Part shown: piece after piece, positions 4,103-5,790 of the stretch
Numbering within the stretch: the first letter of the stretch is position 1
Layout: every line of letters starts with the position of its first letter
Source of the DNA: a virus
IMG/VR virus record: IMGVR_UViG_3300049215_000205
Coordinates: 1-35,996 of that record
Direction: 5' to 3' (one strand)
DNA length: 35,996 bases
Translations under genes and position numbers: made by a program
The notes under the pieces: model-generated
Seen by the model: only the letters and a program-made list of their open reading frames with translations
Told to the model about the DNA's origin: nothing
The model's database searches: none

Positions 4103-4271
4103 CAATACTACACAACCTATTAATTATTCTGAAATAAAAAATGCAGAAGATTATTTTAATCAACAACCCATACAGGTTCCAGAAGGCCATTTTGCGATCA
4201 TAGATCATAATAAATACAAATATACTAACGGTGAATGGGTTCAGGTTGAATGGGACAATGATGATGAATGA
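4095..4271 (+). CDS. Small acidic protein (58 aa)
   Basis: The start MNDNTTQ at 4095 lies in an ATGAATGA overlap; the longer frame from 4068 lies inside the previous gene. The C-terminus IDHNKYKYTNGEWVQVEWDN is an aromatic beta-hairpin-like motif. Like the gene at 154, it shares only the MND start with the mini zinc family. It ends in another ATGAATGA overlap. Confidence 0.68.
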   Translation: MNDNTTQPINYSEIKNAEDYFNQQPIQVPEGHFAIIDHNKYKYTNGEWVQVEWDNDDE

Positions 4272-4461
4272 TTTTACGAAAGAAGAGTTAATATCAATAC
4301 ATGAGGCTTGTCATTATTGGTATGAAGGGCTTGAAACACGTTTAATTGATAAAATACAAGACATGATTGATAAATACTGCGAGCATGAATGGGAAAATAT
4401 TTGTTGCCAATGTACACTTGATAATATTTATTGTCATAAATGCCAAAGGACATTGTTATGA
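4264..4461 (+). CDS. MNDFTKEEL-family mini zinc protein (65 aa)
   Basis: Starts MNDFTKEELISI inside an 8-base ATGAATGA overlap. Contains DMIDKYCEHEW (about 38-48), then C-C-Q-C and C-H-K-C, so three cysteine groups could bind one or two zinc ions. First of a second block of three adjacent family members, over 3.5 kb from the first block. Function unknown. Confidence 0.82.
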   Translation: MNDFTKEELISIHEACHYWYEGLETRLIDKIQDMIDKYCEHEWENICCQCTLDNIYCHKCQRTLL

Positions 4462-4673
4462 ATGAATTTACAAAAGAAGAGCTACAATATTTAATAAAAA
4501 TAATGTTTCCTGCTCCGATTGAAATGAAAATGGAAGAAATACTTTTTAATTATTATTTAGGAATGAAAATCAAATCCATGATTGAAGAAAAAGAAAAGCA
4601 GGAAAAATGTCAACATGAATGGGAATATCATATTAATGACTATTTTTGTGAAAAATGTGGAGTATGTAGATGA
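4458..4673 (+). CDS. MNEFTKEEL-family mini zinc protein (71 aa), diverged
   Basis: Starts MNEFTKEELQYL, ATGA overlap with the gene before. The usual NYC element is replaced by a lysine/glutamate-rich helix leading to KCQHEW, which keeps a C-x-H pair, then C-E-K-C-G at the end. It is the most diverged member and shows that the N-terminal box and zinc ends are kept while the middle varies freely. Confidence 0.8.
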   Translation: MNEFTKEELQYLIKIMFPAPIEMKMEEILFNYYLGMKIKSMIEEKEKQEKCQHEWEYHINDYFCEKCGVCR

Positions 4674-4909
4674 ATGACTTTACGAAGCAAGAGCTAGAAT
4701 GTTTACATAATGCTACTGATTTACAGCTTAAGAAAATTCCAATGTCGGAAAATAATAAATTAAGGCGCCAAGAGCTATTGGGAAAATTACAATCCATGAT
4801 CGATAATTATTGCAAACATAGATACACAAAATTTCTAGTTACAGACAATAGCGCATCATTTATTGATAAATGCGTAAAATGTAATGATTTAAAATTTAAA
4901 ATACAATAA
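4670..4909 (+). CDS. MNDFTKQEL-family mini zinc protein (79 aa)
   Basis: ATGA overlap with its sibling upstream. MNDFTKQELECL, then SMIDNYCKHRY and a C-V-K-C pair near the C-terminus. Last of the three tandem copies, 11 bases before the methyltransferase. C-x-H plus C-x-x-C suggests zinc binding; role unknown. Confidence 0.82.
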   Translation: MNDFTKQELECLHNATDLQLKKIPMSENNKLRRQELLGKLQSMIDNYCKHRYTKFLVTDNSASFIDKCVKCNDLKFKIQ

Positions 4910-4920
4910 ATAGGTAAATA

Positions 4921-5790
4921 ATGAATCATTTAGATTTATTTTCAGGAATTGGCGGTTTTGCGTTAGCGGCGCGATGGTCTGGAATTGTAACCATACAATT
5001 TGTGGAAAAAGATGAATTTTGCATAAAGGTATTGCAAAAAAATTTCCCTAATGTACCTATTTATCATGATATTAAAAAGTTTAATTTTCAAAAAGAAGTA
5101 GATATTTTGACTGGTGGCTTTCCATGCCAACCTTTTAGCGTTGCAGGAAAAAGAAAAGGATTTTCAGATGACAGATATTTATGGCCAGAAATGCTCAGAA
5201 TCATTAAGCAATGTAAACCCAGATATATTATTGCAGAAAATGTACCTGGAATTATTCCCATGCTTGACCCCATCCTTGAAGATTTGGAAAAAGAAGACTA
5301 CACCTGGCAAGCGTATCTTATTTCGGCTAGCTCCTTTGACGCCCCACACAAAAGGGAAAGGTTATGGATTATTGCCAACCGCAACAGCATCGGATGCAAC
5401 AGTAGGATCGATTCTAGGCAAGAACGACAGTTACAAGACGACATCGAACGGCACGTTAAGACGATACAATCAGAATGGACACAATTCAAGCCTTTCTCTT
5501 GGGCGTCTTTTAATGCTCAAAAATGGCTTGGATTTACTTCCGACTCCAACAGTGAGCAGTGCAGTAAAGGAGCAACGCATAAGGATGCCTTCGCCGAGCG
5601 ATCCGAATGGACGAGATCTCCCTCAACGGCTAGGGAAAATTGCTCCATCTTTAATTGGCAAGAAAATGAACCCCCAATTCCTAGAGTGGATGATGGGTTA
5701 CCCAATTGCGTGGACAGAAATAAATCTCTAGGAAATGCTATTGTTCCGCAAATAGCTTATATATTTATGACGGCAATTATTAAATTATGA
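4921..5790 (+). CDS. dcm: DNA (cytosine-5) methyltransferase, Dcm type
   Basis: 289 residues, short for the family. Motif I DLFSGIGGF (5-13), motif IV GGFPCQPFS (65-73, catalytic Cys69), ENV motif (106-108), motif VIII-like APHKRERLW (141-149) and motif X SLGNAIVPQ (269-277). It should transfer methyl from S-adenosylmethionine to C5 of cytosine, probably masking phage DNA from host restriction. The ribosome site is only a weak AGGT. Between residues about 150 and 265 a second frame of the same DNA also reads like family sequence, so the target-recognition part may be frameshifted relative to its ancestor (see the alternative-frame entry). Whether the in-frame product is active is not certain. 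Confidence 0.9.
   Translation: MNHLDLFSGIGGFALAARWSGIVTIQFVEKDEFCIKVLQKNFPNVPIYHDIKKFNFQKEVDILTGGFPCQPFSVAGKRKGFSDDRYLWPEMLRIIKQCKPRYIIAENVPGIIPMLDPILEDLEKEDYTWQAYLISASSFDAPHKRERLWIIANRNSIGCNSRIDSRQERQLQDDIERHVKTIQSEWTQFKPFSWASFNAQKWLGFTSDSNSEQCSKGATHKDAFAERSEWTRSPSTARENCSIFNWQENEPPIPRVDDGLPNCVDRNKSLGNAIVPQIAYIFMTAIIKL
5369..5731 (+). other. Alternative-frame (+1) coding segment inside dcm
   Basis: In the frame one base ahead of dcm, this stretch reads LLPTATASD, later LLPTPTVSS, and ends MNPQFLEWMMGYPIAWTE before a stop at 5729-5731. From established knowledge, PTPTASD-like repeats and an NPxFxEWxMGxPxxWT ending are hallmarks of many phage cytosine methyltransferases after the APHxRER motif. 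The dcm frame over the same bases reads EPPIPRVDDGLPNCVDR, another common ending. A +1 shift near 5369 and a -1 return near 5718 would give a product joined to motif X. Confidence 0.6.

Follow-up and report, generated by a model that had tools for sequence, protein, structure and literature searches.

Why should the methyltransferase gene of a phage carry two overlapping reading frames that both read as cytosine methyltransferase sequence? The gene in question lies on a 36-kb phage record of 36% G+C (35,996 nucleotides, hereafter the window). The initial annotation had pointed out that the frame named dcm stays open beyond APHKRER while the +1 frame over the same bases also yields sequences typical of phage cytosine methyltransferases, and had proposed that two C-terminal types are frame-shifted readings of one DNA. 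Direct reading of the sequence bears out the first part: the dcm frame is open past APHKRER, through EPPIPRVDDGLPNCVDR and on to motif X, and LLPTATASD, LLPTPTVSS and MNPQFLEWMMGYPIAWTE are all found in the +1 frame where they had been claimed. The observation is confirmed as real and extends further than claimed, since the +1 frame is open over a greater length than had been stated, from 5111 (GTG at 5114, ATG at 5168) to a stop at 5731. We refer to the dcm-frame product as the alpha chain and to the product of the nested +1 frame as the beta chain, the latter consisting of an overprinted N-terminal half, then a predicted target-recognition region with LLPTP units, then motif IX. The features of the locus are as follows.

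4921-5790, plus strand: alpha chain, the dcm-frame ORF of 289 aa, with cytosine-C5 methyltransferase motifs I-VIII and X
5156-5170, plus strand: probable internal start of the beta chain (AAGGA at 5156-5160, 7 nt, ATG at 5168-5170)
5168-5731, plus strand: candidate beta chain, the nested +1-frame ORF of 187 aa counted from its ATG, with a PHROG_1008 match and a conserved layout
5168-5376, plus strand: putative dual-coding stretch, where alpha motifs IV-VIII coincide with the beta N-terminal half
5369-5395, plus strand: LLPTATASD, first LPTP unit, in the +1 frame here and in-frame in single-chain relatives
5377-5730, plus strand: variable region, read as target recognition and motif IX in the +1 frame and as an open, weakly constrained linker in the dcm frame
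5534-5560, plus strand: LLPTPTVSS, second LPTP unit, +1 frame
5666-5719, plus strand: MNPQFLEWMMGYPIAWTE, motif IX, +1 frame
5668-5718, plus strand: EPPIPRVDDGLPNCVDR, dcm-frame reading of the motif IX DNA, on the same bases as MNPQFLEWMMGYPIAWTE
5731-5790, plus strand: motif X (GNAIVPQ) and C-terminal helix, dcm frame only

Database searches of both translations revealed family relatives for each. The dcm frame is matched over its whole length by PHROG_363 (E 3.6e-73) and over about residues 1-186 of 289 by the Pfam cytosine-C5 methyltransferase family PF00145 (E 6.5e-48). The +1 ORF is matched by PHROG_1008 over residues 3-203 (E 4.9e-24; the beta chain, E 4.3e-19), as are 80/80 scanned members of the +1 alignment, and it has no Pfam match. 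Its tail gives tblastn matches down to 1e-15, and the beta chain is 64-70% identical in three related loci (L004-L006). Both PHROG families are called 'DNA methyltransferase' and stand as separate families in the library, whereas here they are two frames of one DNA; the proposal that two C-terminal types are out-of-frame readings of the same sequence thus holds, with homologues for each frame. The alpha chain has motifs I-VIII of PF00145, including PCQ and ENV, as well as a motif X that is conserved across the alignment. It does not contain motif IX and a target recognition domain in the same chain, as members of PF00145 should, because the Pfam match stops at about residue 186, the variable region is predicted to be disordered and motif IX lies in the +1 frame.

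An open second frame could simply be a chance property of a conserved gene, as G+C-rich genes commonly carry out-of-frame ORFs. At only 36% G+C, open frames are not cheap in the window. When the dcm protein was kept and its synonymous codons were shuffled, a mean of 6.8 stops appeared in the +1 frame over 5168-5728 and none of 20,000 trials was free of them, while the actual sequence has none. The reverse shuffle, which keeps the +1 protein, gave a mean of 7.5 stops in the dcm frame (probability of zero, 5e-5), so that each frame is open beyond what the other protein would lead one to expect, as in overprinted overlapping genes. Across 88 loci, 6.7 stops were expected per locus in the +1 frame and none was seen. 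Because this set had partly been chosen by its +1 frame, the test was repeated on an independent sample of 80 viral loci picked by dcm-frame similarity only, over the last 70 codons up to the end of motif VIII. The +1 frame was open there in 80/80 loci, against 8.1 expected. By comparison, in 30 loci of a mycobacteriophage clade of single-chain relatives, where motif IX stands in frame 0 in 26/30, the +1 frame was open in 12/30, with 10.3 expected. The absence of any open shuffle and the 80 open loci refute a chance origin, to which we give practically no credence. The initial annotation had held that the second frame would be chance if only one frame had homologues or purifying selection; both were found for both frames.

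The selection acting on each frame was mapped with substitution rates at dcm codon positions 1/2/3 in 31 independent pairs of homologues, no locus being shared between pairs. Upstream of the nested start the rates were.155/.095/.338; they were.158/.059/.210 where the frames overlap as far as motif VIII,.301/.128/.140 across the variable region and.167/.104/.364 beyond the nested stop, where selection is back on the dcm frame. In the variable region dcm position 1, the wobble position of the +1 codons, is the fastest. From motif VIII to motif X purifying selection is therefore mainly on the +1 frame, and before and after this segment it is on the dcm frame. Very close pairs display the pattern free of alignment doubt; two loci that are 97-98% identical (L019/L020) differ in the variable region by 10/3/0 changes at dcm positions 1/2/3. 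The variable region of the single-chain relatives, used as a control, has an ordinary third-position pattern (.061/.051/.142). Across the variable region the window shares 55-75% identity with four related loci (L004-L007) in the +1 reading and 40-48% in the dcm reading. Together these rates and identities indicate that the +1 protein is maintained there, the constraint on the dcm frame being mainly to stay clear of stops. Four-fold synonymous divergence falls from ~.6 to.2-.3 near the nested start, over motifs IV-VIII, but it also falls from.35 to.24 in single-chain relatives, whose +1 frame is closed, so this drop alone is no proof of dual coding over these motifs.

The initial annotation had offered two origins for the double reading, old compensating indels or living frameshift expression. 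This choice does not stand as the main reading, since both frames are present together and open in nearly all loci examined. In its strong form, the first origin would make the +1 frame a relic, a fading shadow of a target domain moved out of frame by old indels, with only the dcm frame expressed. Frames do switch in relatives (L123, L280, Gudmit, WillSterrel), and compensating indels have a part in the family history there and in mycobacteriophages. A relic, however, would be expected to change at the third positions of dcm codons and to gain stops, while the variable region is under selection in its +1 reading even in the nearly identical pair L019/L020. We consequently hold it very improbable that the +1 frame is a mere remnant.

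How, then, would the +1 protein be made? Programmed +1 ribosomal frameshifting near motif VIII would join motifs I-VIII to the target domain and motif IX in a second, longer form of the enzyme. The +1 segment is colinear with the C-terminal region of single-chain relatives, and a shift after motif VIII would recreate their order. Such a product would nevertheless end at the +1 stop (5731) and so be without motif X. Moreover, a gene expressed by frameshifting should be constrained in its second frame only downstream of the shift site, whereas the +1 frame is open upstream of motif VIII in all 80 dcm-selected loci, where the frameshift product needs no open frame; nor does it need the ATG column that is conserved there. 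We accordingly consider living frameshift expression an unlikely source of the +1 protein. The upstream openness indicates instead a nested gene with a start of its own. At the alignment position of the ATG at 5168, 59/88 loci have ATG, and the Asp codon at this column is GAT in 74/85, against a background of 60%; in several other lineages, AAGGAG stands 7 nt ahead of an earlier ATG. There is no Shine-Dalgarno enrichment before the conserved ATG over a shuffled-codon null of the dcm protein, and the case for a separate start is based on the upstream open frame and the conserved ATG rather than on Shine-Dalgarno sequences or four-fold divergence. From these sequence features we infer that beta translation would begin at the internal ATG at 5168.

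The identity of each chain was approached through the single-chain relatives. In WillSterrel and McProf, motifs I-VIII, LLPTP units, LNPxFxEWMMGWPxxWV and GNGVVPQQ follow one another in that order in one frame. The counterpart segment of another relative (L280) aligns by phmmer to residues 273-314 of M.HhaI, KLHPRECARVMGYPDSY...GNSVV, which are its motifs IX and X; this stretch has a low score alone but is colinear with a significant first stretch. A canonical enzyme from virus Rctr41k (H187), LTPTECERLQGFPDGWT...GNAVAVP, aligns across the same segment. The single-chain order and these two alignments point to the C-terminal half of beta as the target recognition region plus motif IX, with the LLPTP units as repeats inside the target recognition region. 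An AlphaFold model of the 289-aa alpha chain, run with 58 relatives, has pLDDT mostly >80 for residues 1-154 (lower around residues 71-80) and for 271-289, while most of residues 158-268 are <50 and motif X falls in a helix at 266-288. This is what a catalytic domain followed by a disordered linker and motif X would look like.

It could be argued that the nested ORF is a real overprinted gene with some other job, for example that of an anti-restriction or regulatory protein. The N-terminal half of beta, over motifs IV-VIII, has no Pfam match and no recognised relatives outside the nested-methyltransferase family, and beta alone gives no confident fold (AlphaFold pTM 0.30, no structural match by Foldseek against the PDB, and chance matches only with a beta profile against PDB sequences). 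Its C-terminal half is nonetheless homologous to the in-frame variable region and motif IX of methyltransferases, which are exactly the parts that alpha lacks, and a separate job is on these grounds quite improbable.

We therefore propose, with a probability of roughly 0.8, that the nested gene encodes the beta subunit, carrying the target recognition domain and motif IX, of a two-chain cytosine-C5 methyltransferase. The proposal draws on the conserved open frames, the selection map, the homology of the +1 frame to the single-chain variable region and motif IX, and the predicted disorder of the linker. The dcm frame would yield alpha, with catalytic motifs I-VIII, a long unconstrained linker and motif X. 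Ribosomes starting inside the alpha gene at the ATG at 5168 would read the +1 frame to yield beta, whose N-terminal half would be overprinted on alpha motifs IV-VIII and whose C-terminal half would supply the target recognition domain and motif IX missing from alpha. The two chains would assemble into the enzyme, beta would set the DNA sequence that is methylated, and the presumable role would be to protect phage DNA from host restriction.

The nested arrangement was found in nearly all of about 250 phage and bacterial loci, where annotation usually overlooks it. A nested +1 ORF accompanied by motif X in the dcm ORF occurs in 94/96 loci (93 plus one cut by a contig end), the exceptions (L015, L083) being broken by an indel, and in 76/80 bacterial or prophage loci spanning Bacillota, Bacteroidota, Pseudomonadota, Verrucomicrobiota and others. 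Among the 77 loci of the dcm-selected sample that have a motif-IX-like match, motif IX lies in the +1 frame in 76 and, in 74 of these, is enclosed by the dcm ORF. There is slight overlap among these three sets (96, 80 and the dcm-selected 80), as some contigs appear again with new locus numbers. In Escherichia phage K1ind1 (ORF29/ORF28) and Paenibacillus phage Jacopo (gp56/gp57), nested pairs are annotated as two CDS, the smaller 'DNA methyltransferase' CDS being wholly inside the larger as in the window; their records leave the second frame without explanation.

Other relatives divide the gene differently. L123 (1631-2620), L280 (1492-2370), L281 and L282 have LPTP units in the +1 frame and motifs IX and X in the dcm frame; L280 and L123 represent a third architecture. 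LPTP units stand in both frames in Gordonia phage Gudmit (L180:1384-2769) and in WillSterrel (L179:1193-2368), as though the place where the frames switch had shifted inside the target region. Such exceptions imply that paired indels shift the frame boundary in the course of evolution, and this is the core of the compensating-indel idea. In two Bacteroides loci, L115 (1616-2732) and L116, a stop interrupts the dcm frame beyond motif VIII and the +1 frame is open for ~350 aa; their alpha chain may be broken or shortened, and a dcm stop beside an intact +1 frame counts against the two-chain model. A tree of motifs I-VIII does not settle the age order of nested and single-chain forms, although the mycobacteriophage single-chain clade adjoins nested rows, a placement that hints at re-fusion in this clade. 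Separately, the +1 ORF of Bacteroides phage BS-TP4 (L002:765-2087) is 379 aa long with five or so LPTP units, which suggests that the number of target units varies, perhaps as in multispecific phage methyltransferases.

Two-chain cytosine-C5 methyltransferases are already known, M.AquI and M.EcoHK31I among them, and the principle would be the same here; M.EaeI is also a two-polypeptide enzyme like M.EcoHK31I. The nearest known case is M.EcoHK31I, which was compared by description rather than by sequence. Lee and colleagues reportedly found in 1995 that its small chain comes from another reading frame within the large-chain gene, as the nested +1 ORF does in the 94/96, 76/80 and 74/77 loci above, and its chains, said to be of about 309 and 176 aa, are similar in length to those of this locus (289 and 187 aa). 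The M.EcoHK31I large chain contains motifs I-VIII and X and the small chain motif IX (PMC3404938), a division that matches the one seen here. Its predicted target recognition domain was, however, placed in the large chain (PMC3404938), whereas we place that of the present enzyme in the nested chain, given the +1 selection, the disorder prediction and the in-frame LPTP units and motif IX of single-chain relatives. M.AquI is likewise divided in the variable region, but its small chain carries motifs IX and X rather than IX alone (PMC3404938). The single-chain WillSterrel gp71 and McProf gp6 share with this locus the order of motifs I-VIII, LLPTP units, an NPxFxEWMMGxP motif IX and motif X, but hold them in one frame; in their clade the upstream +1 frame is open no more than expected and selection is single-frame. 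Out-of-frame HNH endonuclease insertions in phage methylases, as in ShiLan (PMC11855218), also hide a second protein in another frame of a phage methylase gene, although they are mobile homing insertions with an HNH domain and not the variable region of the enzyme itself. An insertion of this type was considered for the nested ORF and rejected, as 0/80 +1 members had a Pfam HNH match.

No description of the nested arrangement in phages was found in the literature searched. What is new is the proposed target domain in the nested chain, the wide occurrence of the arrangement in phages and the direct evidence, segment by segment, of the frame under selection. We think it reasonably probable, less so than for the locus itself, that a large class of phage cytosine methyltransferases is two-chain, with the sequence-reading part nested, a specificity region that evolves, gains repeats and moves between frames, and an annotated frame that contributes only a linker there. 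If so, an unannotated protein would hold the specificity of many annotated phage 'Dcm' proteins, and the assignment of the M.EcoHK31I target domain to the large chain, as published, would need revision. Usually only one frame of a phage methyltransferase gene is annotated, and that frame would be cloned; were the target part in the other, constructs made from the annotated protein alone would be without it, specificity predictions from that protein would mean nothing and codon optimisation of a synthetic gene would destroy the enzyme. The family also provides a large natural set for the study of same-strand gene overlap, with single-chain relatives as controls, in which selection acts on one frame, on both and on the other in consecutive segments of the same gene.

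Two further observations concern the surroundings and composition of the gene. G+C is ~46% in the variable region (5377-5730), against 36% window-wide, a rise that is expected if the sequence is constrained by two frames. Just upstream of the methyltransferase gene, four small plus-strand ORFs (263-535, 4231-4461, 4440-4673 and 4670-4909) share the opening MN[DE]FTK[EQ]EL and have the appearance of a tandem paralogous family.
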